Source: an uncultured Veillonellaceae bacterium (GTDB lineage Bacteria > Bacillota > Negativicutes > Selenomonadales > Selenomonadaceae). Taken from it: a DNA stretch of 37,037 nucleotides. The stretch covers positions 1 through 37,037 of the forward strand of contig ONCF01000017.1 of assembly GCA_900316275.1 (NCBI GenBank). Direction: 5' to 3'. The position numbers were made by a program, and so were the translations under genes. This document shows, piece after piece, positions 19,022-36,344 of this stretch; within the stretch, counting starts at the first letter, position 1; every line of letters begins with the position of its first letter. The notes below the pieces were generated by a model. That model was not told the origin of the DNA. It made no database searches and worked only from the letters and a program-made list of their open reading frames with translations.

Positions 19022-19061
19022 GTAAAGTAATGTTTACTATTTTGACGGAGCATATTATAAT
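19022..19061 (+). promoter_or_regulatory. Promoter of the mla operon with overlapping inverted repeat
   Basis: TTTACT (19033-19038), a 17-bp spacer and a perfect TATAAT (19056-19061). GTAAA (19022-19026) and TTTAC (19033-19037) form an inverted repeat covering the -35, a position suited to a repressor. The leader before mlaE is about 100 bases. Confidence 0.55.
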
Positions 19062-19167
19062 GAGCTCATGGCAGCCCGCCGGAAATTTGCGGCAGGGTAT
19101 TACATCAAGAGGTCATTTAGTGGTAGAATGACCCGTAGTTTTGCGTCAATCGGGAGAGGAGGCCCTG

Positions 19168-19938
19168 ATGCTCAATAGATTTTTGGAAGCTATCGGCGGC
19201 TTCGTGCTGCGGCGGTGCGCAGAGCTCGGCCGCATGGTGCTCCTGTATATGGAGACGATGCGTCAGCTGTTTCACCGGCCGCGCTACAAGCAGATTCTCT
19301 ACCAGATGTCACATCTCGGTGTTGACTCGCTGCTCATCGTGAGCCTCACGCTGGCCTTTACGGGCGTCGTGCTCACGCTGCAGACGGCGGATGAGCTCAT
19401 CAAGTACGGTGCGCAGAGCACGGTCGGTGCTATCATTTCCATCGGTATCGGACGCGAGCTCGGTCCCGTGCTCGTGGCCGTCGTCTGTGCGGGCCGCGTG
19501 GGTTCGGCCATCACGGCCGAAATCTCCACGATGAAGGTCACGGAGCAGATTGATGCGCTGCGCGTCATGGCCGTGAGTCCGGCGGACTACCTCATCGTGC
19601 CGCGCATGCTGGCCTGCATGGCCATGGTGCCTGTGCTCACGGTGTTCGGCGATGTCATCGGCGTCGTGGGCGGCTATCTCATCGCTGTCTACTACTCGGG
19701 CATCAGTTCCGTGACGTTTATGAATTCCATTCATACCTACGTCGATGTCTACGACTTCACAGGCGGGCTCATCAAGGCGATTTTCTTCGGCAATATCATC
19801 GCGGTGCTCGGCTGCTACTACGGCCTGAACAGCCCTGACGGCGCCGAGGGCGTCGGCAAGGCCACGACACATACGGTCGTGACGTCCATCATCGTGATTT
19901 TTATTTTGAACGCGCTTTTGACGTTCATCCTGTTTTGA
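19168..19938 (+). CDS. mlaE: MlaE-family lipid ABC transporter permease
   Basis: A 256-aa inner-membrane permease (MlaE/YrbE, DUF140 family), the membrane part of the Mla phospholipid transporter. It has about five hydrophobic segments and the family core GRELGPVLVAVVCAGRVGSAITAE split around residues 93-120, plus the EQIDALRVMAVSP loop that contacts the ATPase. The ATG at 19168 has a GAGAGGAGG site; a TTG at 19141 upstream in frame lacks one. mlaF starts 7 bases after its stop, so translation is probably coupled. In diderm Firmicutes this operon stands at the head of the outer-membrane gene block, as here. Confidence 0.95.
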   Translation: MLNRFLEAIGGFVLRRCAELGRMVLLYMETMRQLFHRPRYKQILYQMSHLGVDSLLIVSLTLAFTGVVLTLQTADELIKYGAQSTVGAIISIGIGRELGPVLVAVVCAGRVGSAITAEISTMKVTEQIDALRVMAVSPADYLIVPRMLACMAMVPVLTVFGDVIGVVGGYLIAVYYSGISSVTFMNSIHTYVDVYDFTGGLIKAIFFGNIIAVLGCYYGLNSPDGAEGVGKATTHTVVTSIIVIFILNALLTFILF

Positions 19939-19945
19939 GGTTGCT

Positions 19946-20695
19946 ATGATAAAAATAGTGGATGTGTGCAAAGAGTTCGCGGGCAAACCGGCGCTCCGGC
20001 ATATCAACCTGACTATCGAGGACGGCGAGACCATCGCCATCATCGGCGGCTCCGGCTCGGGCAAGAGCACGCTTCTGCGCCTGCTCATCGGTCTCATCCG
20101 GCCGACGAGTGGTGAAATCTGGATTGGCAACGATGAAATCAGCCAGCTGGACGAGCGGGCACTAGATGCCGTGCGGCTGCGCATGGGCATGGTGTTCCAG
20201 TACTCAGCGCTCTTTGACTCTATGACCGTGGGTGACAACGTGGCCTTTGGCCTGCGCGAGCACACAAACAAGAGCGAGGCGGAAATCCAGCAGATTGTGC
20301 AGGAAAAGCTGCACCTCGTGGGACTGGACGGCGTGGAGCGCATGATGCCACCGGAGCTCTCGGGCGGTATGCAGAAGCGCGTGAGCCTTGCGCGGGCCAT
20401 CGCCATTGAGCCGGAAATCATCCTCTACGATGAGCCGAGCTCGGGCCTCGACCCCATCATGACAGAGAAAATCGACGAGCTCATCATTCACACGCAGCGC
20501 GAGCTGCACGTGACGAGCGTCGTGGTTACGCACGACATGGCGAGTGCCTGCCGCATCGCGGACCGCATCGCCATGGTGTACGCGGGCGAGCTCATCGCCG
20601 TGGCACCCGTGGAGGAGTTTAAACAGATCAAGGACGAACGCGTGCAGGCCTTTTTCCATAGCCTGCGCACGGTAAAGGAGGCGCAGGCCGTATGA
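19946..20695 (+). CDS. mlaF: MlaF-family ABC transporter ATPase
   Basis: A 249-aa ABC ATPase that powers MlaE. Walker A is GGSGSGKST (34-42), the signature is LSGGMQKR (about 141-148) and Walker B is IILYDEPSSGLDP (about 161-173), with the switch histidine in VTHDMA. The FQYSALFDSMTV stretch in the Q-loop is typical of the MlaF/Mkl branch. Its stop overlaps the mlaD start as ATGA, so the two are translationally coupled. Confidence 0.95.
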   Translation: MIKIVDVCKEFAGKPALRHINLTIEDGETIAIIGGSGSGKSTLLRLLIGLIRPTSGEIWIGNDEISQLDERALDAVRLRMGMVFQYSALFDSMTVGDNVAFGLREHTNKSEAEIQQIVQEKLHLVGLDGVERMMPPELSGGMQKRVSLARAIAIEPEIILYDEPSSGLDPIMTEKIDELIIHTQRELHVTSVVVTHDMASACRIADRIAMVYAGELIAVAPVEEFKQIKDERVQAFFHSLRTVKEAQAV

Positions 20696-21978
20696 CGACA
20701 GAGGCCAAAGTAGGAGCATTTACCATCGCGGGCATTGCGCTGCTCGTGGCCGTCGTGATGCTGCTGGGGAATTTCTCGTTGCACAGCAGTAAGGGCTACA
20801 CGCTCTATGCGGGCTTTACGCAGGTCAACGGCATTCAGGCGCAGGCGCCGGTCTGCCTGTCCGGCGTGCCCGTGGGCACGGTGCAGCAGGTCAGCAACGA
20901 GGGCGGCGGCGTCACGGTGGCGCTGGCCATCAATGCAGATACGAAAATCCCGCGCGGCTCGCACGTGACCATCGGCTCGCCAGGCGTCATGGGCGATAAA
21001 TTTATCAACATTCTGCCCGCGAAGGACGGCGGCGACTACCTCACGAATGGCGATTACCTCATCGGCGAGGACGAGACGGGCATGGACACGCTGTTCACGG
21101 GGCTGAATCAGGTCGTCGTGCAGGCACAGGGCCTGCTCGACAGCATGAACAAGGTGCTGGGCAACCCGAAGTTCCAGGGCAGTATCATCCAGATGACTGC
21201 GAACATGCGCGATGCCACGGCCCACATGAGCGGCCTCATGGCGGCGCTCGAGGCCACGATGCAGCAAAATCAGGGCAATATCAACGCCATGATGCAGAAC
21301 TTCAATGCGATGTCCGCGAGCCTCGAGCGCACGATGAGTGCGGCGGAGGCCGTGATGACGAATATCGAGACCGTGGGCGCTGACCCGCAGACGGCGGAGA
21401 ATCTGCGCCTCACGGTGTCGAACATCGCCGATGCCAGCGCGCGTATCCAGCACATGGCGGCGAACCTCGACGGCTCGCTCGGCGACCCCGAAACGGCGAA
21501 GGAATTTACGGAGACGGTCAAGCATGCGCGTAACGTCTCCGTACGTGCGAAGAACCTCATGGATAAAATCGATAAAATCGAAGTCAAACCCAGCGTAGAT
21601 GTACTTTACAGCGGCAGCGCCGATGACTGGACGACGAATGCGAATTTCGATTTCTCCACGGGAGGCAACGCCTATGCGCGCTTCGGCTTTGAAGATATCG
21701 GCGATGGCAACGACGTCAACGCCCAGTTGGGCACGCGCTTTGGTCGCCACCTCGGCGCGCGCGCGGGCGTGATTGCCGGTGACCCGGGCCTGGGGGTTGA
21801 CGCCTATGCAGGGCGTTTCAAATTCGGCACGGAGGTCTATGCTTTCGACAATACGCAGGTGCGGCTCACGGGGCAGTACGACCTCACGGGTGACGGCACG
21901 TACCTTATGGGGCGCTGGGATGACCTGCGCAACCAGCACGACCGCCGTGCCTATTTCGGCCTGCGGCAGGAATTCTAA
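20692..21978 (+). CDS. mlaD: MlaD-type MCE protein with C-terminal outer-membrane barrel-like domain
   Basis: A 428-aa substrate-binding component of Mla. An N-terminal membrane helix (about 8-27) is followed by one MCE domain (35-112, with LSGVPVGTVQ and PGVMGDKFINI). A long helical stretch (135-297, rich in N/A/M/T) comes next, then a C-terminal 130 residues of alternating polar/hydrophobic strands (ARFGFEDI, QLGTRFGRHLGARAGV, YAGRFKFGTEVYAF) ending in Phe as outer-membrane barrel proteins do. E. coli MlaD has only about 180 residues. The layout would span from inner to outer membrane, as described for the Mla system of Veillonella parvula. The fusion is read directly; the barrel nature is inferred. 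Confidence 0.92.
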   Translation: MTTEAKVGAFTIAGIALLVAVVMLLGNFSLHSSKGYTLYAGFTQVNGIQAQAPVCLSGVPVGTVQQVSNEGGGVTVALAINADTKIPRGSHVTIGSPGVMGDKFINILPAKDGGDYLTNGDYLIGEDETGMDTLFTGLNQVVVQAQGLLDSMNKVLGNPKFQGSIIQMTANMRDATAHMSGLMAALEATMQQNQGNINAMMQNFNAMSASLERTMSAAEAVMTNIETVGADPQTAENLRLTVSNIADASARIQHMAANLDGSLGDPETAKEFTETVKHARNVSVRAKNLMDKIDKIEVKPSVDVLYSGSADDWTTNANFDFSTGGNAYARFGFEDIGDGNDVNAQLGTRFGRHLGARAGVIAGDPGLGVDAYAGRFKFGTEVYAFDNTQVRLTGQYDLTGDGTYLMGRWDDLRNQHDRRAYFGLRQEF

Positions 21979-22081: not shown

Positions 22082-23677
22082 TTGAAAAGCAAGAGCATTT
22101 ATAAAAAACTGACGGCCCTCGTTTTATCCAGTGCGCTGCTGGGCACTGGCGCGACGGCGATGGCGGCGGACACGGTGGAGCTCGGCCTCGGCGACAGCGT
22201 GCAGATGGCACTGGAGAACAACCGCACGATTAAGGAGTCCCTCGCGGACGTGGACACGGCGAAATGGGCCATTTCCCAGTATCGTCGTAAATTTGGTCCC
22301 ACGCTCAGCTGGAGCGGCACGATGAACCGCATCGGTGGCGAGGCCTATCAATTGACCGGTCAGGACTACGACTGGAACTATGGCAACACGCTCTCCGTGG
22401 GTATGCCGCTCTATAACGAGCCGCTGCGTCAGCAGGTAGAGGCGAACAAGCTCGCGCTCAACGCGGCCGACCTCACACTGGAGAACACGAAGCAGGCCAT
22501 CCGTTTGCAGGCCACGTCGGCTTACTACAACATTTTGCAGTGCCGTAATCTCATCGACGTCCAGCAGGATGCCGTGAATACGCTGCAGACGCATCTCGAC
22601 AATGTCAACGCGCAGTACCGCGTGGGCACGGTCGCGAAGTCCGATGTTCTGGCTTCGCAGGTGCAGCTGGCGAATGCGCAGCAGTCACTGGTCTCGGCGC
22701 AGAACAACTACGATGTGGCGGTCTCGACGCTGAACAACATCATCGGCCTGCCGACGAATACGAACCTTTCCATTCACGACCAGTTGAAATATACGAAATA
22801 TGACCTCACGCTCGATGATTGCACGCGCTATGCGCTCGCCAACCGTGCTGACGGTGCAGCAGCTGTCTACAAGGTGAAGCAGGCTGAGCAGGGCGTCAAA
22901 GCCGCGAAAGCGGGCGATTATCCGACACTCAACGCGGCGGTGTCGCGCAGCATCGGCGGTGAGGAGCCGTTCCGTGCCAACCACGGCAGCAGCAATAACT
23001 GGGCAGCCGGTCTGAGCGCGGGCTGGGATATTTTCGATAACGGCGTGACGCAGGCCAATACGCATGCGGCAGAGGCCTCGGTGACGAAGGCGAAGGAAGC
23101 CTCCGCGCAGACGGATGAGAGTATCCAGCTCGACGTGCGCACGGCCTATCTGAACCTGCAGGCGGCGGAGAAGAATATCCATACGACTGAGGTCGCGGTG
23201 GCGCAGGCCCAGGAAGATTATAAAATCGCGCAGGTACGTTACAGCGCTGGTGTCGGCGTAAACCTCGACGTCATGGATGCCGAGGAGAAACTCACGGCGG
23301 CACGCACGAACTACTACACGGCGCTCTACAACTACAACACGAGCAAAGCTTCGCTGGACAAGGCCATGGGTATCCCCGTGGACCTCGATGTGACGAAATA
23401 CATGGCGGCCCAGCAGGCGGGCAAGACGGCCGTGGAGTCGCGCGAGGCGGGACGTCTGAACGCGAACGCGCTGTTTGAGACGCCAAAGGCTGAGACGGCA
23501 GACGCCCAAGACAAAAAGGCCGCGCAACCGGCTAAGCAGAAAAAGGCCAAGGCGGAGAAGCAGGCTAAGGCCGAAAAAGCTAAGGCCAGCCAGCAGGCGG
23601 CCAGCACGGCTAAAACGCAGCCTGTAAGCCAGCAGGCGGCGACAGCGCAGGAGGTTGCGGCCGAAGCGGCAAAATAA
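22082..23677 (+). CDS. tolC: TolC-family outer-membrane efflux/secretion channel
   Basis: A 531-aa outer membrane efflux protein. Signal peptide 1-28 ends ATAMA-AD. The two OEP repeats are visible as paired long helices: SAYYNILQCRNLIDVQQDAV and later RTAYLNLQAAEKNIHTTEVA, each followed by a QxRYxxG-type turn (NAQYRVGTVAKSDVL and QVRYSAGVGVNLDVM). TolC trimers form the exit duct of efflux pumps and type I secretion. A Lys/Ala/Gln-rich tail of about 70 residues (from about 462) is unusual and likely periplasmic. TTG at 22082 follows GAGGAGG. It lies between mlaD and tamB, probably in the same transcript plus its own promoter. Confidence 0.93.
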   Translation: MKSKSIYKKLTALVLSSALLGTGATAMAADTVELGLGDSVQMALENNRTIKESLADVDTAKWAISQYRRKFGPTLSWSGTMNRIGGEAYQLTGQDYDWNYGNTLSVGMPLYNEPLRQQVEANKLALNAADLTLENTKQAIRLQATSAYYNILQCRNLIDVQQDAVNTLQTHLDNVNAQYRVGTVAKSDVLASQVQLANAQQSLVSAQNNYDVAVSTLNNIIGLPTNTNLSIHDQLKYTKYDLTLDDCTRYALANRADGAAAVYKVKQAEQGVKAAKAGDYPTLNAAVSRSIGGEEPFRANHGSSNNWAAGLSAGWDIFDNGVTQANTHAAEASVTKAKEASAQTDESIQLDVRTAYLNLQAAEKNIHTTEVAVAQAQEDYKIAQVRYSAGVGVNLDVMDAEEKLTAARTNYYTALYNYNTSKASLDKAMGIPVDLDVTKYMAAQQAGKTAVESREAGRLNANALFETPKAETADAQDKKAAQPAKQKKAKAEKQAKAEKAKASQQAASTAKTQPVSQQAATAQEVAAEAAK

Positions 23678-23737: not shown

Positions 23738-26700
23738 ATGAAAAAACGCACGTTGGCCTATGGTCTCGGGGGTATCTGCGCCGTTTTGCTGCTCGTGGCA
23801 GCGGGCGTGTGGTACTATGTCCAAAGCCAGGCCGATGTGCTGCTCGCGCAGGTCGCGGCAACGGCCGAGACCAAAGCCTCGGACACGCTCGGCGTGCCCG
23901 TGAAGATTGGCGATATCGAGGTCAAATCCCTACGCCAAATCGAATTGCATAATGTAGCCCTGTATGACAAGCAGGCGGAGTGCATCGCCCGCGCCGAGAC
24001 GGCGCAGGTGAGTTTCCGCCTGCTTTCTGTCTTTGACGCACAGGCGCTCCTGCAGCAGCCAGCCGACGCGGTCAAGGAAATTAACCTGACAGGCGTACAG
24101 GCGACGCTCCGCCAGCGTGACGACGGCAGCTGGAATGTCGCTGATATCACGAGCGAAAGCTCGGGCTCGACGACGTTTCACGCGCTTGTCACTATTGCGG
24201 ATAGTGAACTGACGCTCGTACGGCCCGATATGACGGCCACGCTCACGGACGTGCAGGGCACGGTGGACTTTGCGGACTATCCGGTGCTGCAGGCGGAGGT
24301 CACGGCGCGCAGCCACGGAGCACCCGTCACAGTGCAGGGCAATATCAGTAAAGACAAGCAGATTGTCAACGTCACGGCACAGGATGTGGACCTCGCCGAC
24401 TATCTGGAGTTTATCCCGGCGGACACACTGCCCGCGGGCCTGACCATCAACGGCGGCCGCATTACGCAGGTGCAGGTCGCCGTGCTGAACCGGCAGGGCG
24501 CGCCGCTCTCGCTCACGGGCACGGCAGAGTTTACGGACGGCAGCCTCGTCGTGCGTGAGACGCCGGTCGAGCAGCTGGCGGGGCACGCGCAGTTCACGCA
24601 GCGCGGCGCACTCGTGCAGGCGACGGCAGAGGCAGCGGGACAGGCCGTGCAGGCGCACGGCGCCGTGCGTTGGGATACGGGCACGCCCTATCTCGATATC
24701 TACGCACAGTCCGCGGCGTTTGACCCCGGTCAGGTGCTCAGAAATCTCCCCTATAGCGGTGCGGCAGCTTTTGATTTGCATGTGACGGGATTGACGAGCA
24801 ATCCGGCCGTCGAGGGCACCGTGCAGGTGCCGGCAGGTGAGTGCTACGGCGTACCGTTTACAGACGCCAGCGCGCAGCTGCGCTTCCGCGATCGGCGCGT
24901 CTATGTGCAGGATGTGCACGCCAGTATTTGGGGCGGGCAGGTCACGGGCGAGGCCGAGGTGGCCCCGCAGGACCTCAGCTATACGGGGCATGTGCAGATC
25001 ACCGGCGTCGACGTGGCGCAGGCGGGCGCGCTCGTGCCCGCACTCGCGGCGCAGGGCGTGACGGGCCAGGCTACGGCCGACCTCGGCTTTAACGGCATGG
25101 GGACGGACATGGACACCATGCAGGCCTACGGCAGTGTGCGTCTGCGTGACGGCAGCGTGCGCGGCGTGACGCTCGAGGATGTGGCGGGCTCGTTCCACGT
25201 GCAAGGGCAGGATATCACCATCGACTACCTCTCGGCGAATCTGCCGCAGCGCAGCAGCCTGGGTGTCGAGGGCACGATCCGTGGCGGTCAGGCTCTCGAT
25301 CTCGCTTTCTACGGGGGGCATCTCGACCTCGCGCTCGCACAGCAGCTCGTGCCCGAGGCGGACCTCACGGGTACGGGTGACCTCGAGGGTACGGTGCAGG
25401 GGCCACTCGCGAATCCGCAGGTGGAGCTGAAGTTCTCCGCCATGCGCGGCACATTCTTTAAGCAGCCGTTTGATACGCTGAAAATCCGCGCAGGCGGCAG
25501 CCTCGACGGCGTGCACGTCGACGACTTCCTGCTGGAGAAAGACGGCCAGCAGACGTGGTTCGTACAGGGCACGGTCGGTTTCACGGGCGAGCGCAAGGTC
25601 GATCTGCGCATCGATACCAAGGGCGCGCGCATGGAGGATGTCGTGGCGCTCGTGGCTCCGGACCAGCCGCTCACCGGTAATGTCGATAACGTCATCCAGC
25701 TCAAGGGTACGCTGGACAACCCGCAGGGCGTCGGCTACATTCATTTCTATCGCGGCAGCTACAGTGGTGTGCTGCTCTCGGGCATGGACGGCGACTATTT
25801 CCTCAACGACGGCGTGCTGCGCCTGCAGGATTTCCATCTGTTCAGTCCCATGGTCGATGCCGTGCTCAACGGCACTATCGACAGCGCGCGGCGGCTCGAT
25901 ATGGTTATCAAGGCCGCTGACCTCGATATGGCGCGTTTCCAGGTGAAGCTGCCGTATGCGGTCAGCGGGCACGGCACGTTCGATGGCCAGATAAAAGGCA
26001 CGCTCGCCGCACCGGAATTCCACGGCGTGCTCGATGCCCCCAGCGTCGTGCTCAACGGCCAGACGGTGGAACAGGTGCACGGCTTCGTAAACTACAAAAA
26101 CGACCAGATTTCCGTGGAGCGTTTCGGCTTCGTGCAGAATGCGGGTACCTATGATATGGAGCTTGGCTACAATCGCGTGACGCAGGCACTCAAAGGCAGC
26201 ATTGTCGTGCAGGATGCGGATGTGAATGCCATCGCGGCTATCCTGAACTACCGCAACGACAAACTGCAGGGCCGTCTGACCTGCGCGGCCGATATCGGTG
26301 GCACGCTCGCGAACCCGTTGGCCACGGTACATGGCGAACTCGCACAGGGCACGGTCGCGGGGCACGATGTGCACGGTGTGGCACTTGACGCGCATCTGCT
26401 CGACCAGATTATCTACATCGATAAACTGCAGGGGCAGCAGGGCACGGACGGTCAGTTCAGCCTGCAGGGCTCGGCGGCACTCGACGGGCCACTGGCGGGC
26501 ACACTCTCGGCACAGAACATTGAGCTCGGTATCTTTACGGGGCTCGCGGATATGCCGCTGGCGACGGTGGGCACGGCGGATGTCGAGGCGGCTATCGGTG
26601 GCTACACGCATAATCCGACGGTCGACGCGACGCTGCGTGCACGCGACGGCGGTATCAAAGGCAGCACATTTGACACGCTGAACAGCGTCGTGCATCTCAA

Positions 26701-28102
26701 AAACGGCCAGATTGATATCGACTCGCTGAACGTGCAGAAAATGGTAGGCCAACAGACCTACCAGCTCAGTGCCGAGGGCGTCGTGCCGCTGAATGCGCTG
26801 CGGGCGACGCAGGACCAGGACGCGGTGAACGACATTGAGCAGATGCAGCTGCAGGTGTCGCTCGACCATGCGGACCTCTCGCTGCTGCCGGTGCTGTCCT
26901 CACAGGTGGAGTGGGCCGTCGGCGCGACGCAGGGCGGCCTCACGCTCACGGGTACGGCGGCGAATCCGCGCCTCCAGGGCGCACTCGTCATCCCCGATGG
27001 CGGCATCAAGCTCAAGGCGCTGGAGAAACCTTTGACCAACGTGCATGTGCAGGCAGATTTTAATGGTCACACCATGACATTGAAAGATATTTCTGCTAAA
27101 ATGGGCGACGGTACCTTGAAGGGAAACGGTCACGCGACACTCGCGGGTCTGGCGCTGCATGACTACGCGCTCGACGTGCAGGCGGATAAAATGGATGTCC
27201 AGAGCGACTTTTTCCGCGGGCCCATCACGGGCGAACTGCACGTGAGTGAGGGTGAGCTCTTCAATTTCAAACTGCCCAAATTATCCGGGCGGCTGGATTT
27301 CGCGGACTGTCAGGTCTCGGTGCCGACCATCCCCGATACGAGTGGCGAACTGCCGGATATCCTGCTCGATATGCAGGTCAACGTAGGGAACAAGGTGCAT
27401 TTCTACAGTGCCTATCTCTACGACATGTTCCTCACGGGACAGGTCCACTTCGGCGGTACGACGCGGCATCCGCGTACGTCGGGTTCGCTCGCGGTCAAGC
27501 GCGGCGGCTCGGTGAACTACCTCAAGACGGTGTTCAAGATTGACGAAGGTGCGGCCTATTTCAATCAGGTCGACTCCTTCCTGCCGAGCATCACGTTCCA
27601 CGCGATGACGAAACTCACGCAGGCGAAAGTCTACCTCGCACTTGACGGGCCGCTCGATGCCATGAACATCACGTTGACGGCGAGTCCGGAGATGAGCCAG
27701 ACGGAGATTATCCAGTTGCTCACGCTGCGCAACGCCTACAAGGCGGGCAAGCAAATCGATGCGGGCGACTTGCTGAACGTGGGCCTGCAGATGAGCTTTC
27801 TCTCCGAGGTGGAGGACGTCATGCGCAAAATGCTCTGGCTGGACGACTTCACGCTCTCGCGCGGCAGTGGCTCGGCGCTCGACCAGCATGACCGCGAGAG
27901 CAAAAATGACAACGAGGATGTCTACAATGTGGAAATGGGCAAGTACATCAGCGACAAGCTCATGCTGAAGTATACGCAGGGCATCGGTGATAATGTACAC
28001 CGTTATGGTCTGCAATACGATATGAACGACCGCTACAGCTTTACGCTGGAAAATGAAGACAACGCGACGATTGTCGGCGCGCAGGTACAGGTGAAATTCT
28101 AG
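23738..28102 (+). CDS. tamB: TamB/YtfN-type AsmA-like lipid-bridge protein
   Basis: A 1454-aa protein with an N-terminal inner-membrane anchor (about 8-27), a very long repetitive beta-rich body and a C-terminal TamB (DUF490) domain that ends NDRYSFTLENEDNATIVGAQ then VQVKF. TamB-type proteins form hydrophobic grooves across the periplasm and move phospholipids to the outer membrane; TamB of proteobacteria also works with TamA, an Omp85 protein. No tamA is seen, but bamA lies 1.6 kb downstream and could be the Omp85 partner. The ATG has GGGGATG-type purines upstream. It is somewhat longer than E. coli TamB (1259 aa). It lies 60 bases after tolC and 36 before the sigma gene. Confidence 0.93.
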   Translation: MKKRTLAYGLGGICAVLLLVAAGVWYYVQSQADVLLAQVAATAETKASDTLGVPVKIGDIEVKSLRQIELHNVALYDKQAECIARAETAQVSFRLLSVFDAQALLQQPADAVKEINLTGVQATLRQRDDGSWNVADITSESSGSTTFHALVTIADSELTLVRPDMTATLTDVQGTVDFADYPVLQAEVTARSHGAPVTVQGNISKDKQIVNVTAQDVDLADYLEFIPADTLPAGLTINGGRITQVQVAVLNRQGAPLSLTGTAEFTDGSLVVRETPVEQLAGHAQFTQRGALVQATAEAAGQAVQAHGAVRWDTGTPYLDIYAQSAAFDPGQVLRNLPYSGAAAFDLHVTGLTSNPAVEGTVQVPAGECYGVPFTDASAQLRFRDRRVYVQDVHASIWGGQVTGEAEVAPQDLSYTGHVQITGVDVAQAGALVPALAAQGVTGQATADLGFNGMGTDMDTMQAYGSVRLRDGSVRGVTLEDVAGSFHVQGQDITIDYLSANLPQRSSLGVEGTIRGGQALDLAFYGGHLDLALAQQLVPEADLTGTGDLEGTVQGPLANPQVELKFSAMRGTFFKQPFDTLKIRAGGSLDGVHVDDFLLEKDGQQTWFVQGTVGFTGERKVDLRIDTKGARMEDVVALVAPDQPLTGNVDNVIQLKGTLDNPQGVGYIHFYRGSYSGVLLSGMDGDYFLNDGVLRLQDFHLFSPMVDAVLNGTIDSARRLDMVIKAADLDMARFQVKLPYAVSGHGTFDGQIKGTLAAPEFHGVLDAPSVVLNGQTVEQVHGFVNYKNDQISVERFGFVQNAGTYDMELGYNRVTQALKGSIVVQDADVNAIAAILNYRNDKLQGRLTCAADIGGTLANPLATVHGELAQGTVAGHDVHGVALDAHLLDQIIYIDKLQGQQGTDGQFSLQGSAALDGPLAGTLSAQNIELGIFTGLADMPLATVGTADVEAAIGGYTHNPTVDATLRARDGGIKGSTFDTLNSVVHLKNGQIDIDSLNVQKMVGQQTYQLSAEGVVPLNALRATQDQDAVNDIEQMQLQVSLDHADLSLLPVLSSQVEWAVGATQGGLTLTGTAANPRLQGALVIPDGGIKLKALEKPLTNVHVQADFNGHTMTLKDISAKMGDGTLKGNGHATLAGLALHDYALDVQADKMDVQSDFFRGPITGELHVSEGELFNFKLPKLSGRLDFADCQVSVPTIPDTSGELPDILLDMQVNVGNKVHFYSAYLYDMFLTGQVHFGGTTRHPRTSGSLAVKRGGSVNYLKTVFKIDEGAAYFNQVDSFLPSITFHAMTKLTQAKVYLALDGPLDAMNITLTASPEMSQTEIIQLLTLRNAYKAGKQIDAGDLLNVGLQMSFLSEVEDVMRKMLWLDDFTLSRGSGSALDQHDRESKNDNEDVYNVEMGKYISDKLMLKYTQGIGDNVHRYGLQYDMNDRYSFTLENEDNATIVGAQVQVKF

Positions 28103-28138: not shown

Positions 28139-28783
28139 ATGCGTTTTGAACAGTACGTGGCCGAATTGCGCCAGGTCGAACTGTTGGCGCCCGAGGAGGA
28201 GCAGCAGCTTTGGCGGGCCTGCAAGGAGCAGGGCGACCAGGCGGCGCGGCGGCGGCTCATCGAGTCGTATCAGCCGCTCGTGTTCAAGCAGGCGCTGCCC
28301 TTCCGTCAGTATCAGGGGATTATGGACATTGTGCAGGAGGGCACCATCGGGCTCATCGAGGCCGTGGAACGCTATGACCACACGCGCGGTGTGGCGTTCA
28401 GCCTGTTCGCCGTGCACCGCATCCGCGGGCGCATGCTCGATTTCCTGCGGCGCGAGGGTGCGGTGGATTTGCCCTGCCTGGAGGCCGCAGCGGGCTACGG
28501 TGACGAAGAGGGGCTGCCACTCAAGGAGCAGCTGCCGGACACGGCGGCCTCCGTGGCCGAGCAGGCAGAGACGCACGAGCTCGTGCGGCGCATCCGGCAG
28601 TCACTGGAACGCCTGCCCGTCAAGGAAAAGGCCGTGCTCGAGGGCATGTATCTGCGCAGTGAGGAGGCGGGCACGGTAGCCGAGGCACTGCAGGTGACCC
28701 CCTCGCATATCTACCGCCTGCAGAAAACGGGTATCCGCCGCGTGCGGGGTATGCTCGCGAAATTTATGCATTACTGGGAGTAA
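28139..28783 (+). CDS. Sigma-70 family alternative sigma factor
   Basis: A 214-aa sigma factor. Region 2 (about 38-105) includes DIVQEGTIGLIEAVERYD (63-80) for core binding and the FSLFAVHRIRGRMLDFLRR recognition helix. A short linker replaces most of region 3. Region 4 (about 145-207) has LERLPVKEKAVLEGMYL and a helix-turn-helix AEALQVTPSHIYRLQKTGIRRVR. The layout is like SigB/SigF/FliA-type group 3 or sporulation-type factors, not ECF. The ATG has AGGAGGTG. It is the last gene of the mla-tolC-tamB run, so it may control envelope genes; the target promoters are unknown. Confidence 0.88.
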   Translation: MRFEQYVAELRQVELLAPEEEQQLWRACKEQGDQAARRRLIESYQPLVFKQALPFRQYQGIMDIVQEGTIGLIEAVERYDHTRGVAFSLFAVHRIRGRMLDFLRREGAVDLPCLEAAAGYGDEEGLPLKEQLPDTAASVAEQAETHELVRRIRQSLERLPVKEKAVLEGMYLRSEEAGTVAEALQVTPSHIYRLQKTGIRRVRGMLAKFMHYWE

Positions 28784-29633: not shown

Positions 29634-29724
29634 ATATACTAAGACTGTTTGAACATTTGCGCGAAGCAGCTGCGCCAGAGGGCACAACGCTTTGCTATGG
29701 CAACATATTAGGAGGTTTCTATCC

Positions 29725-31770
29725 TTGAGTAACAAAGAGTACAAGCAATTGGCCTATGCGGTAGCACTGGCCGTCAGCGTGGTCACGCTCCCCCAGACGG
29801 GCTACGCGGAGGAGCAGGCGGCTGCGGCCCAGACGGTGGATAGTCAGGCCACGGCCACAGCGACGGCACAGAATGCGGCCGTAACGGAGCAGGCCGCTGC
29901 GCCAGCGGCACCGACGGCGACAGCTACGCAGGCCGCTGCAACGGGGCAGGCAGCCCAGGCCACGGCAGCAGGTGAGCAGCCGGCCGCCAAGGACGACAAG
30001 CAGGGCACGGCTCAGGATGCGCGCACGCAGGCCTGGGTCAAGGCCCGCCCCGCCGAGGATGTCATCACGCAGGCCATGAAGCAGTACGAGGGCCAGACCA
30101 TCGTCGACACGACGTTCGACGGCACGACGGAGCTCACGCAGCAGGCCGTGAAGTCAGCCATCACGATGCACACGGGCGACATGTTCACGACGGGCGGTCT
30201 CGCCAAGGACCGTGAGGCCATTTTTGCCACGGGCTATTTCTACGACCTTTATCCGACGGTGGAAAAGGTGCCCGAGGGCATTGTGCTCACGTACCATATG
30301 CTCGAAAACCCGGTGCTCAAGAGCGTGAAGATTACGGGCAACACGGTAGAGAAGACCGTGGACCTCGAAAAATTACTCACGGTTAAAACGGGCGAAATTC
30401 TCAACAGCCGTACGCTGCACGAGAATGTGCAGGCCATCCAGGGCCAGTACCGCAAGGACGGCTATATCCTTGCGAAGATTACGGATCTGAATATTTCCCC
30501 GGACGGCGACCTCGTGATTAAAATCAACGAGGGCACGCTCGAGGGCTTCAAGGTCAAGGGCAACACGAAGACGAAGGACTACGTCATCCTGCGCGAAATG
30601 CGCCAGAAGGTCGGCGAGCCGTTCAACTCGACGAAGGCCCGCCGCAGCATGCAGCGCGTGTATAACCTCGGCTTCTTCGAGGATGTCAATATCAAGATGA
30701 ATCCGGGCGTGAACCCGAATGCCGTCGTCATGGAAATCGACGTCAAGGAGAAACGCACGGGCTCGTTCGGCATCGGCGCCGGTTACTCCAGCGAGGATGG
30801 CGTCGTCGGCATGCTGAGTGTTTCGGATACGAACTTCCGCGGCACGGGCGATGCGGTGAGCATCAGCTATGAGGTCAGCGGCGATGACTCCGATGCGCAC
30901 GGCTACACGTTCTCCTGGCGCCACCCCTATATCGATGCGAAAGAAACCGTAGGCACGTTGAAGGTCTATAACCGTACCTACGAGTACAGCGATTACTATG
31001 AGAACGGTGACCTAAAAGAGGAGTTTATGCGTAAATACTCCGGCGGTGAGGTTACGTTTGGCCGTCCCGTCAGCGAGTATTCTACGAACTACGTCACCTT
31101 GCGCAATCGTAAAGATGAATATGATAATTTCGATCCTAGTGATGAAAGTACAACATTTTATGAAGATGTTGATGCCAATGGTAATTATATGGGGCGCAGT
31201 GGCCCAACCTATGCACAGTGGCGTAAGGATAACTTCGGTCTCACGCGCAGCGTGATTCTCGAGCATGTGACTGATAACCGCGATAATGTCTACAATCCGA
31301 CGACGGGCGGCCGCGTGAGCCTCTCGGGTGAGTTTGCCGGCCTCGGCGGTGACTTCAGCTATCAGAAATTCGATATCGAGGATCAGCGTTACTTCAAGGT
31401 CGGCCATGCACAGGTCATCGCAACGCGTGGCCAGTTGGGTGGCGTTCATGGTAATATTTCAGAATACAGCCAGTTCCGCATCGGTGGTCAGAACAGCCTG
31501 CGCGGCTACCGCGACGAGCAGTTCCGTGGCACGCGCATGTTCCTCGCTACGGTCGAGTACCGTTTCCCGATTGTCTCGAAGGTGCAGGGTGCCATCTTTA
31601 CGGATTGGGGCAGTGCGTGGTCGGATGATTATCAGCCGAGCATGGATGAAATCCACGGCAGCATTGGTATCGGCCTCTCACTGAATACGCCGGTCGGTCC
31701 GTTGCGCCTCGATTATGGTCGTGGTGACCAGGGCGGACGTGTCCACTTCACGGTGGGCGGCAGCTTCTAA
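29725..31770 (+). CDS. bamA: Outer-membrane protein assembly factor BamA (Omp85)
   Basis: A 681-aa Omp85 protein that inserts beta-barrel proteins into the outer membrane. Signal peptide 1-28. An Ala/Thr/Gln-rich linker (29-100) precedes POTRA domains (about 115-385; for example VLKSVKITGNTVEK and GFKVKGNTKTKDYVILREM), three by eye rather than the five of E. coli. The 16-strand barrel follows, with the conserved RGYR at 593-596 (the VRGF/Y loop motif) and a C-terminal FTVGGSF ending in Phe. TTG at 29725 has AGGAGG nine bases upstream; the longer ORF start is in the leader. It opens the bamA-ompH-lpxD run. Confidence 0.95.
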   Translation: MSNKEYKQLAYAVALAVSVVTLPQTGYAEEQAAAAQTVDSQATATATAQNAAVTEQAAAPAAPTATATQAAATGQAAQATAAGEQPAAKDDKQGTAQDARTQAWVKARPAEDVITQAMKQYEGQTIVDTTFDGTTELTQQAVKSAITMHTGDMFTTGGLAKDREAIFATGYFYDLYPTVEKVPEGIVLTYHMLENPVLKSVKITGNTVEKTVDLEKLLTVKTGEILNSRTLHENVQAIQGQYRKDGYILAKITDLNISPDGDLVIKINEGTLEGFKVKGNTKTKDYVILREMRQKVGEPFNSTKARRSMQRVYNLGFFEDVNIKMNPGVNPNAVVMEIDVKEKRTGSFGIGAGYSSEDGVVGMLSVSDTNFRGTGDAVSISYEVSGDDSDAHGYTFSWRHPYIDAKETVGTLKVYNRTYEYSDYYENGDLKEEFMRKYSGGEVTFGRPVSEYSTNYVTLRNRKDEYDNFDPSDESTTFYEDVDANGNYMGRSGPTYAQWRKDNFGLTRSVILEHVTDNRDNVYNPTTGGRVSLSGEFAGLGGDFSYQKFDIEDQRYFKVGHAQVIATRGQLGGVHGNISEYSQFRIGGQNSLRGYRDEQFRGTRMFLATVEYRFPIVSKVQGAIFTDWGSAWSDDYQPSMDEIHGSIGIGLSLNTPVGPLRLDYGRGDQGGRVHFTVGGSF

Positions 31771-31772
31771 GC

Positions 31773-33062
31773 ATGTCTGCCCGCAAACGGCGGGCCTGCC
31801 TGATTTTGGCAGCGCTCCTGTTCTTCTGCCTGCCGGCGGCAGCAGGAGCTGCGGCTCGCCTTTCGTCGGTCACGAGCACGGTAACGGGTGAACAGCTGCC
31901 ACCGCTCGTGCAGCAGCGCATGCAGGAGAGCGTGCGCGTCATCAGCGAGCAGGTGCTGCTCGGTCATCCCGTGCAGGCAGCCTACCCACAGGAGGCGGCG
32001 CTCATCCGCGAGGTCTTTGACAAGGTGCTCGTGGGCTATACAGTGCAGCAGGTCGCGGTCCAGGCGACGGACGCGGGCGAGGCCAGCGTGCAGGTCACGC
32101 TGCTGCCCTGGTCGGACGTCATCCAGTCCGTGCAGGTCGTGACGCAGGTCGAGGGCATGCCGCCAGAGGTCGAGCGCCTCGTGCGGCAGGATCTGGCCGC
32201 CGTGGACGCGGTGTTCCGCGAGGCACTGCAGGGCCTGCCCGTGGCGGCGACGGACTGGACGAACGGCATCCTGAAACGGCAGCTCAATGCCTATCTGGCT
32301 GCGCACTTGCCGGAGTTCCGGGCGGACTTCGACCTCGTGCCCCAGGCGGATGGGCAGATGCAGATAGCGCTCACGGTGTTCCCGCGCCTGCCCGTCGTGC
32401 GCACGACGGACCTCTCCATGCGTTCGGACACCATCCCCAACTTCTCCCTGCTCAGCCACCGCGAGCTCATGCAGCAGCAGGCAGATTTACTCGTGGGCGT
32501 ACCAGTAGCTTTTGTGGCGCGGCATCAGGCGGCATTTGAGCAGCTGCTCGCGCAGACACTCGACACGCTGCCCGATGCGCGGCAGCTTCACCTGCAGACG
32601 CAGGTCACGCTCACGCCGGGCGAGCGGCTCTATGTGATGAGCCGCTCGGACACGCGTGCGTTCCGCCTGCGCCTCACGGGCTGGCTCGATATGGGCCGCA
32701 GTGCCAACAGCGACCACGACCTCATGTTCCGTCTGCACGCGGGCAGCATGCTCTCACAGCAGGACGAGCTGCTCGCGCTGCTCGATGTCTACCCGCAGGA
32801 TGTGGACTGGGACTGGCAGCTCGGCTGGCGGCACTGGCTCTCGCATAAAGGTACGGCGGATGTGCGCTACGACATGCGCGGCAAGCGTTTCCTCTTTGCC
32901 GCACGGCAGGAGTTCCTGCCGCGCTGGTGGCTGCGCTATGAGTACCGCTGCCTCACCAGCAGCGGCGAGGCGGCCGTGGGCTATAAGCTGCACGATTTTC
33001 TCAGCCTCGAGTGGCTGCGCGACCGTCACGACAACTGGCTGCGGCTCATCGGCAACTTTTAG
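31773..33062 (+). CDS. Uncharacterised exported beta-rich protein between bamA and ompH
   Basis: A 429-aa protein, start two bases after the bamA stop with no clear SD, so probably translated by coupling. Signal peptide 1-26 (LILAALLFFCLPAAAGA). Residues 30-300 look mixed alpha/beta, with repeated VQVTLLP- and LQTQVTLTP-type strand pairs like POTRA or BON modules. Residues 300-429 alternate as amphipathic strands (FRLRLTGWLDMG, ADVRYDMRGKRFLFAARQEF, WWLRYEYRC) and ends WLRLIGNF, with terminal Phe. That suggests an outer-membrane or BamA-associated protein. I do not recognise a named family. Confidence 0.75.
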   Translation: MSARKRRACLILAALLFFCLPAAAGAAARLSSVTSTVTGEQLPPLVQQRMQESVRVISEQVLLGHPVQAAYPQEAALIREVFDKVLVGYTVQQVAVQATDAGEASVQVTLLPWSDVIQSVQVVTQVEGMPPEVERLVRQDLAAVDAVFREALQGLPVAATDWTNGILKRQLNAYLAAHLPEFRADFDLVPQADGQMQIALTVFPRLPVVRTTDLSMRSDTIPNFSLLSHRELMQQQADLLVGVPVAFVARHQAAFEQLLAQTLDTLPDARQLHLQTQVTLTPGERLYVMSRSDTRAFRLRLTGWLDMGRSANSDHDLMFRLHAGSMLSQQDELLALLDVYPQDVDWDWQLGWRHWLSHKGTADVRYDMRGKRFLFAARQEFLPRWWLRYEYRCLTSSGEAAVGYKLHDFLSLEWLRDRHDNWLRLIGNF

Positions 33063-33195: not shown

Positions 33196-33660
33196 ATGGT
33201 ACAGTTACAGAAAAAGACGGTCAAAATCGTCAGCGTCCTCATTGCCCTCGTGTTCGTGGGTTCCGTCGTGGCCCTGGCCCTGACGCAGTCAGGCTCGGGC
33301 ATTGCCTCGGCGGCCAGCTCCAATGTGGGCGTCGTTGATATGCGCCAGGTCTACAGCCAGCATCCGCAGACCCAGAGCATGCAGTCCGAGATGCAGAAAG
33401 CAGCCGCTGACGCTCAGAAAGAGTTCGAGGAGAAATCCAAGAACATGAACGATCAGGAAAAGAACGACTACTATCAGCAGACCATGCAGCGCCTGCAGCA
33501 GAAACAGCAGGAGCTGACGGATCCGATTGAGAAGGACGTCGAAGAGAAAGTCAAGACGGTTGCCCAGGCTAAAGGCCTGAGCGTTGTGCTCCTGAAAGAT
33601 ACCGTCGTCTATGGCGGCACGGATATCACGCAGGACGTCGTCAACAAGCTCACGAAGTAA
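33196..33660 (+). CDS. OmpH/Skp-family periplasmic chaperone 1
   Basis: A 154-aa OmpH-family protein. Skp/OmpH trimers hold unfolded outer-membrane proteins in the periplasm for delivery to BamA. An N-terminal hydrophobic segment (about 9-30) serves as signal peptide or anchor. The OmpH start VGVVDMRQVYSQHP follows at 43-56. A coiled-coil stretch rich in Q/K/E (60-115) and the C-terminal VVLLKDTVVYGGTDITQDVV (127-148) complete the family layout. ATG at 33196 has AGGAG 12 bases upstream. It is the first of three related genes in a row. Confidence 0.9.
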   Translation: MVQLQKKTVKIVSVLIALVFVGSVVALALTQSGSGIASAASSNVGVVDMRQVYSQHPQTQSMQSEMQKAAADAQKEFEEKSKNMNDQEKNDYYQQTMQRLQQKQQELTDPIEKDVEEKVKTVAQAKGLSVVLLKDTVVYGGTDITQDVVNKLTK

Positions 33661-33747: not shown

Positions 33748-34827
33748 ATGGCGGAGGAACCAGCACAAAAGGACGTGCCTGCGCACCCACGGCGGCATCG
33801 GCGGCTCGTCGTGGGTGCGCTCACGGCGGCCATCCTCATGGCCTGCGGCGGTTGGCTTTACCACACGCTCGTGACACCGGCGGTGCCGGCCAGCGTGACG
33901 GAGGAGCCGGAGACGGCGCTCATGGACCTGCGCCAAGTCATGGCGGCGCACCCGCGTTATGCGGAGCTCACGCAGCTGCGTGAGGAACGGCAGGCACTGG
34001 AGCTGGAGCTCGAGGACCTGCAGGCCCAGCAGCCGCCTGAGCTCACGGTGCAGCCACCGGCGGTGGAGAGCAAGCCGTTTGACGACTCCGTCTGGCAGAA
34101 AAATGCCCAGACGGTCATCGGCGGTCGCTCGGAGCTCGCGCGCGAGCAAAAGGCCCTGCGTGAGCAGTACAGACAGGAGCACGAGGCCGAGTACACGGCG
34201 CGGCGTGATGCGCTGGACGCCGAGTACCGCAACACTATTCTGAACCTGCAGCTTAAGCTGGACAACCGCGACGTCATGCGCCTCTCGGCACAGTCTGTGG
34301 CCGAGCTCGAGCAACAGCTCACGCAGGTCAAGCAGGAGCGTGGCGAGCGGCAGTGGCAGATGTATCAGGCCTGGCAGCAGGAAATCAATGCCTATGTGCA
34401 GTCGGTCATGGGGCCGAAGCTCGCGGCCTGGCGGCAGTCGGCAGAGCAGGCCAAGGCTCGCCAGCAGAGCGAGGCACTTGCCAGGCAGACGGCAGCCCAG
34501 GCGCGTGACACGGCGGCCATGGATAGTCAGATGGATGCCTCGCGTCGGCTGCAGGACCAACTCGTCAAGCGGCAGGCCCTGCAGGCGAAGCAGGACGCGT
34601 GCAATGCCCTCGAGGCGCATATCCTTAACGATATCGCGGGACGCGCGGCGAAACTGGCTATCTTGCACCACTACACGTTGGTGCTTGTCACACCTGTGCG
34701 CCCGGTGCACCTCTATGTACCGACGGTCATACCCAGCGTGGAGACAGAGGAACACTATGAGGACCTCATCGGCGTGACGACGACGGATGTGACCGAAGAA
34801 ATGATAGCAGAAATGCAGAGCCTGTAA
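33748..34827 (+). CDS. Enlarged OmpH-like coiled-coil protein 2
   Basis: A 359-aa protein. An N-terminal membrane anchor (about 19-42, after the basic HPRRHRRL) precedes an OmpH-like start ALMDLRQVMAAHP (about 55-68). A very long coiled coil (70-305) is rich in Q, E, R and A. The C-terminal segment has HHYTLVLV and GVTTTDVTEEMIAEM, matching the OmpH end pattern (LD..I...DVT..I). It is more than twice the size of its neighbours, with an expanded tentacle. ATG at 33748 has GGAGGAGGTG. Probably a membrane-tethered Skp-like chaperone; not assigned to a named family. Confidence 0.75.
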   Translation: MAEEPAQKDVPAHPRRHRRLVVGALTAAILMACGGWLYHTLVTPAVPASVTEEPETALMDLRQVMAAHPRYAELTQLREERQALELELEDLQAQQPPELTVQPPAVESKPFDDSVWQKNAQTVIGGRSELAREQKALREQYRQEHEAEYTARRDALDAEYRNTILNLQLKLDNRDVMRLSAQSVAELEQQLTQVKQERGERQWQMYQAWQQEINAYVQSVMGPKLAAWRQSAEQAKARQQSEALARQTAAQARDTAAMDSQMDASRRLQDQLVKRQALQAKQDACNALEAHILNDIAGRAAKLAILHHYTLVLVTPVRPVHLYVPTVIPSVETEEHYEDLIGVTTTDVTEEMIAEMQSL

Positions 34828-35318: not shown

Positions 35319-36344
35319 ATGAAAAAGCGTTTGCAGGAACTAGCGGAGCTCGTCGGCGGCCGTCTGGCTGCGGGCACAGACGGGGATATCGTCATCACGG
35401 GGCTCGATAACCTCGAGGGCGCGGGCACGAGCGATTTGACGTTCGCGGTTGAGCCACATATCGAGGAGGCCAAAAGCACGCAGGCGGCAGCGGTCATGCT
35501 GCCCGAGGGCGTGGAGAATTTCCCGAAGCCGGCCCTGTACGTAACCGATCCGCGCGCGGCGTTTGCGAAACTGCTCGCGCATTTCACACCGAAGCTCGAG
35601 TTCCCGCAAGGAGTGAGTCCGCAGGCGCATATCGGTGCGGACGTCAAAATAGGTAAAGACGTGACGATTATGCCATTCGCCGTCGTGGATGACCACGCGG
35701 TCATCGGCGACCGGGTGACGATTTATCCGCACGTCTACGTCGGACAGTACACGGAAATCGGCGACGATACGCTCATCTATGCGAACGTCTCCATCCGCGA
35801 ACACTGCCGCGTGGGCAAACGCTGCATCATCAACTGCAATGCGGTCATCGGCTCGGACGGCTTCGGCTTTACGACGCAGGACGGCGTGCACACGAAGGTG
35901 CCGCAGGTCGGCAACGTCGTGCTCGAGGACGACGTGGAGCTCGGGGCGCAGGATGCCATCGATCGTGCCGCCATGGGCTCGACGGTCATCGGTCACGGCA
36001 CGAAGGTCGACAACCTCGTACATATCGGCCACAATTGCAAAATCGGCCCCAACTGTCTCATCGTGGCGCAGACGGGCATCTCCGGCTCCACGAATGTCGG
36101 CCATAATGTGACCTTCGGCGGCCAGGTGGGCACGGTCGGCCATATCAACATCGGCGCGAACTCCGTCTATGCGGCGCGTTCCGGTATCATCGGCAACATG
36201 CCCGAGGGCGTGTTCGGCGCGGGCTTCCCCGTGCAGCAGCATACGGAATGGCTGCGCATGCAGGCGGCCATGAAGCATCTGCCCGAGATGTACAAGAAAG
36301 TGAAAAAGCTCGAAAAACAGCTCGCCCAGTACGAGAAGAAATAA
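35319..36344 (+). CDS. lpxD: UDP-3-O-acylglucosamine N-acyltransferase
   Basis: A 341-aa LpxD, third enzyme of lipid A synthesis, which N-acylates UDP-3-O-acyl-glucosamine from acyl-ACP in the cytoplasm. The N-terminal uridine-binding domain (about 1-100) has SDLTFAVEPHIEEAK. The left-handed beta-helix of hexapeptide repeats runs 104-265 and contains GFGF (181-184), AIDRAAMGSTVIG and H238 in VHIGHNCKIG, corresponding to the catalytic His of E. coli LpxD. A helical C-terminal tail (290-341) ends basic. ATG has a GGAG site. It lies next to the ompH genes and just before a terminator. Confidence 0.95.
   Translation: MKKRLQELAELVGGRLAAGTDGDIVITGLDNLEGAGTSDLTFAVEPHIEEAKSTQAAAVMLPEGVENFPKPALYVTDPRAAFAKLLAHFTPKLEFPQGVSPQAHIGADVKIGKDVTIMPFAVVDDHAVIGDRVTIYPHVYVGQYTEIGDDTLIYANVSIREHCRVGKRCIINCNAVIGSDGFGFTTQDGVHTKVPQVGNVVLEDDVELGAQDAIDRAAMGSTVIGHGTKVDNLVHIGHNCKIGPNCLIVAQTGISGSTNVGHNVTFGGQVGTVGHINIGANSVYAARSGIIGNMPEGVFGAGFPVQQHTEWLRMQAAMKHLPEMYKKVKKLEKQLAQYEKK

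Follow-up and report, generated by a model that had tools for sequence, protein, structure and literature searches.

A three-gene Mla locus of a Selenomonadaceae genome encodes a long MlaD with a predicted C-terminal outer-membrane barrel

The Mla system of Veillonella parvula includes a MlaD protein of 419 aa in which a transmembrane helix, an MCE domain and a helical region are followed by a ten-strand C-terminal barrel (Grasekamp et al., 2023, PMC10665443). In fractionation of V. parvula the MlaD barrel alone was recovered with the outer membrane and the part comprising the transmembrane helix and the MCE domain with the inner membrane, mla showed lipid-asymmetry phenotypes, and the mla mutants were suppressed by mutations in tamB (PMC10665443). 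The same authors described the order mlaEFD-tolC-tamB as "conserved in all Negativicutes", considered a single barrel too narrow for a lipid, raised the fusion of barrels into a trimer-like barrel and judged six separate barrels per hexamer unlikely (PMC10665443).

Other known systems share only part of this architecture. MlaD of E. coli (183 aa) likewise has a transmembrane helix and an MCE domain, but it lacks both the long helical region and the barrel and works with the partners MlaA, MlaB and MlaC in a six-component Mla system. In mycobacterial Mce1 (8fed) and E. coli PqiB, as in the MlaD studied here, the MCE domain is followed by long helices, which in the hexamers of Mce1 and PqiB form a hydrophobic tunnel; a comparable tunnel is probable for our protein. 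However, neither Mce1 nor PqiB carries a ten-strand barrel in each chain, and in Mce1 the six chains instead contribute one strand each to a single small barrel (PMC10665443).

The window, that is, the whole stretch of 37,037 nucleotides analysed here (GenBank assembly GCA_900316275.1, contig ONCF01000017.1), belongs to a 2.19-Mb genome whose completeness is listed as 100%. On its plus strand, mlaE (19141-19938) encodes the permease (PF02405, E 7.4e-79; TIGR00056 above the cut-off), with an ORF of 265 aa counted from a TTG and a true start which may lie a few codons downstream. Immediately upstream of mlaE, a good match to a sigma-70-like promoter (TTTACT-17-TATAAT) was found at 19033-19061. 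The mlaF gene (19946-20695, plus strand) encodes the ATP-binding subunit of 249 aa (PF00005, E 8.1e-35), which is near the MlaF model PRK11831 yet falls under the equivalog cut-off of that model. The mlaD gene (20692-21978, plus strand) begins with an ATG at 20692 that overlaps the mlaF stop by 4 bases, ends with the final stop base at 21978 and encodes 428 aa, the length given in the initial annotation. It is followed, also on the plus strand, by genes for a TolC-like outer-membrane efflux protein (22082-23677; PF02321, E 1.2e-61) and for a TamB-like protein (23738-28102; PF04357, E 3.2e-42), proposed to be the opposing (anterograde) lipid transporter. The order mlaE-mlaF-mlaD followed by tolC and tamB is the one that characterizes loci with the long MlaD of V. 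parvula type. The initial annotation had also pointed to a V. parvula precedent, and the published description of that system contains both the same anatomy and the same gene order.

Beyond tamB, genes for a sigma-70-like factor (28139-28783), BamA (29692-31770), an OmpH/Skp-like protein (33196-33660) and LpxD (35319-36344) extend the cluster; in the stretch from bamA to lpxD, the ORFs at 31773-33062 and 33748-34827 gave no Pfam match. Two long antisense ORFs, at 20488-21939 over mlaD and at 23930-26869 over tamB, were attributed to the GC richness of the genome and rejected as shadow ORFs.

The possible presence of the remaining Mla partners was studied over the whole genome. No profile match was obtained for MlaA (PF04333) or MlaC (PF05494), with positive controls in E. 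coli and Caulobacter, nor for a MlaB-like protein of the STAS_2 family (PF13466; E. coli control positive), the family to which the search for STAS proteins was confined. The absence of mlaA, mlaB and mlaC, first claimed for the cluster, extends to the genome as far as matches to these three profiles are concerned, and the components by which a six-component system of the E. coli type is recognized (MlaA, MlaC and a MlaB-like STAS protein of PF13466) were not found. MlaA was also absent from all 150 genomes sampled in Negativicutes. The V. parvula system and that of the window thus agree in lacking MlaA and MlaC as well as in the mlaEFD-tolC-tamB order.

A full-length AlphaFold2 model of MlaD was obtained as a single chain from an alignment of 60 orthologs. 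The protein starts with a hydrophobic helix (residues 3-25; 20698-20766, plus strand), predicted to be the inner-membrane anchor, followed by the MCE domain (residues 34-109; 20791-21018, plus strand), whose strands occupied residues 36-125 in the model. This was the only PF02470 domain in the protein (E 1.2e-18, 67.5 bits, with a curated cut-off of 25.1), which assigns it to the MCE/MlaD family and bears out the single MCE domain described at first, and structure comparison of the domain with the solved E. coli MlaD gave Z of about 16-17. Amphipathic helices were predicted for residues 131-294, about 160 residues (21082-21573, plus strand), and the helical amphipathicity of residues 136-299 was higher than that of all 2000 shuffles. 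Confidence of the model was high in the MCE domain and in the barrel and low to middling (pLDDT 41-72) across much of the helical region, which would form the wall of a putative periplasmic tunnel. The best Foldseek match of the full-length model was the Mce1 complex 8fed. The MCE domain and unrelated helical bundles (STAT proteins) accounted for most of what structure searches with this model returned, and the barrel was searched alone instead.

The C-terminal domain (residues 297-428; 21580-21975, plus strand) was predicted in the full-length model as ten antiparallel strands at residues 297-427, with pLDDT mostly above 90 and with Phe428 at the end, in agreement with the succession that had been read from the sequence, in which about 160 residues in helices precede about 130 in strands ending in Phe. 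The same ten strands were obtained when the domain was predicted alone with 60 relatives (pLDDT 95.7, pTM 0.85). AlphaFold2 and homology together thus place a transmembrane helix, an MCE domain, a long helical region and a C-terminal ten-strand barrel in one chain, as in the V. parvula protein, with which the window MlaD shares domain order, barrel and approximate length (419 versus 428 aa). The strand-like alternation of the domain, measured on the family-average profile, was matched by 16 of 2000 shuffles. Across 60 relatives, the hydrophobic face of strands 1, 2, 5, 6, 7 and 8 contained 0-2% charged residues and strands 3, 4, 9 and 10 had a weaker face pattern, while the polar face of the barrel carried the conserved charged or polar residues Arg357 and Asp370. 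The C-terminal signal of outer-membrane proteins is a pattern with a terminal Phe that is read by the BAM complex. In our protein the final strand reads YFGLRQEF, with Gly423 present in 60/60 relatives and Phe428 in 58/60, and is similar to this signal except at position -2, which is occupied by Gln versus the usual aromatic or aliphatic residue.

Structure comparison of the barrel revealed similarity to Legionella porin I (Z 15.7, 136 residues, 2.9 A), to the omptin Pla (Z 14.9, 127 residues, 2.4 A) and to the designed transmembrane barrel TMB10 (Z 13.3, 126 residues, 2.6 A). The omptins (Pla, OmpT) and TMB10 are ten-strand transmembrane barrels which score Z 13-15 against the MlaD barrel with only 5-11% sequence identity, a relation to the protease is not indicated, and the omptins are about twice as long as the MlaD barrel owing to their large loops. 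The likeness is at the fold level only: the barrel sequence was unmatched in the PDB, no Foldseek match of the barrel alone was below E 0.001, and Pfam, including the omptin and OMP_b-brl families, gave no match for the window domain and stray weak ones for the 60 relatives. Phage records contained no useful match to the barrel.

The predicted fold favours a transmembrane barrel, but it is not decisive by itself because soluble ten-strand barrels of calycin type (Rv2717c, FABP, lipocalin-like) also matched the model with Z 8-12. We therefore considered that the C-terminal domain could be a calycin-like periplasmic barrel holding a lipid inside, with MlaD anchored in the inner membrane only, and a lipid-binding barrel of this kind would indeed suit a lipid transporter. 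However, the model is closer to transmembrane ten-strand barrels (Z 13-16), and its last strand follows the pattern of outer-membrane proteins, the Gly at -5 and the terminal Phe being invariant or nearly so. In V. parvula, the barrel expressed without the rest of MlaD was recovered in outer-membrane fractions (PMC10665443). On these grounds a soluble barrel appears highly improbable. The strongest support for an outer-membrane barrel is orthology to this V. parvula protein. The barrel of MlaD is thus very probably located in the outer membrane. The initial annotation had proposed a C-terminal barrel of outer-membrane type, and the confident ten-strand prediction, with transmembrane barrels among its best structural matches, sustains this proposal; the soluble sandwich at residues 300-428 that it named as the opposite outcome did not appear, although soluble calycin-type barrels still score as indicated.

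Taking these data together, we consider it highly likely that the locus encodes the standard three-component Mla system of Negativicutes (MlaE, MlaF and MlaD), with MlaD anchored in the inner membrane and its barrel in the outer membrane. In such a system the N-terminal helix would anchor MlaD in the inner membrane, and the MCE domains of six copies of the protein would probably assemble into a ring on the MlaE-MlaF ATPase. The helical regions would probably build a closed tunnel with a hydrophobic lining across the periplasm, whose mouth would most likely be anchored in the outer membrane by the C-terminal barrel. With the barrel holding the mouth of the tunnel there, the MlaC shuttle and the MlaA lipoprotein would therefore be unneeded. 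Phospholipids would most likely leave the outer membrane for the inner one, in the direction opposite to that of TamB. In this respect the first claim, that a single protein bridges both membranes, stands as regards the predicted barrel, but MlaD is expected to act as a hexamer, of which this protein would be a single chain.

This arrangement places six separate barrels on one hexamer, which is without earlier description and counts against the explanation that we prefer. Alternatively, the barrels could be more than anchors: several of the six could open and merge into a larger barrel, or their outer walls could form a lateral groove, lipids entering in either case via the barrel region. The V. 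parvula authors raised a trimer-like fusion precisely on the grounds that single barrels are too narrow, and the small barrel that Mce1 makes from six chains offers a parallel (PMC10665443). However, one chain of MlaD already yields a confident ten-strand model, and the polar face with the conserved Arg357 and Asp370 is more like that of a plugged barrel; for these reasons we regard merging or a lateral groove as unlikely. The conserved polar face with these two residues and the published remark on the narrow barrel favour an anchor over a pore, as in the three-component system with a barrel in the outer membrane described above.

An ortholog of MlaD was detected in 120 of the 121 genomes sampled from the order, full-length in nearly all of them, and the closest named relatives were Selenomonadaceae (80% identity in MlaD). 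The MCE domain was present in 148/150 Negativicutes genomes; the two with no MCE match (G148 and G224) are each 92% complete. In every aligned relative across Negativicutes the C-terminal domain had 124-132 aa. The window MlaD aligned end to end with a 419-aa MlaD from genome G166 (30% identity, E 7e-53). The OmpM of this genome is nearly identical to PDB 8bys, which we take to be V. parvula OmpM, and G166 was accordingly taken as Veillonella. The window MlaD and the Veillonella MlaD share about 30% sequence identity, and no difference of functional note was found between them.

The order mlaE-mlaF-mlaD-tolC was retained in the Negativicutes loci examined, with tamB next wherever the locus extends far enough, whereas Bacillota loci outside Negativicutes retained mlaEFD and lacked the tolC-tamB neighbourhood. 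In a set of 199 Bacillota genomes, the barrel profile and the MCE profile matched the same 11 genomes and the other 188 had neither. In one genome (G138:C36; L057/L085) a 720-aa frame seemed to join MlaF to MlaD, but it was discarded as an artefact of a masked N run between the genes.

The helical region varied in length from about 125 to about 475 residues among MlaD relatives, while the MCE and barrel ends kept their size. In most Negativicutes it comprised about 165-205 residues, 205 being the class maximum. In small-genome Negativicutes of one family (f28; L066, L074 and L075) and in genome G172 (L073), it had 125-134 residues, around 55 fewer than the usual 187-190 or so. The MCE and barrel domains of these proteins are as large as elsewhere, and the short helical region predicts a shorter tunnel or a narrower periplasm. 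At the other extreme, a family of Bacillota outside Negativicutes (f87; L096, L097 and L098 in G340, G302 and G403, and also G374) has MlaD proteins of 715-726 aa. In these, on the basis of three of the four proteins, the helical region has 465-476 residues with a 19-residue periodicity, and the MCE domain before it and the C-terminal barrel domain after it are normal. It is possible, but in our opinion rather doubtful, that the MCE ring and the barrel are fixed modules and that the length of the helical tunnel tracks the width of the envelope. The variation itself may be partly known already: some MlaD sequences have been reported to bear an additional helical extension, the main text of the report giving no length range for the helical region (PMC10665443).

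The barrel-bearing MlaD is hence the normal and already published form of this protein in Negativicutes, and the Selenomonadaceae genome together with the denser sampling confirms the three-gene trans-envelope Mla design as the rule in this class. Every MCE protein found in the sampled Bacillota bears the barrel, which supports that barrel and MCE domain are one functional unit in these bacteria, and the differences in helical length among MlaD relatives provide natural material for testing the tunnel model.
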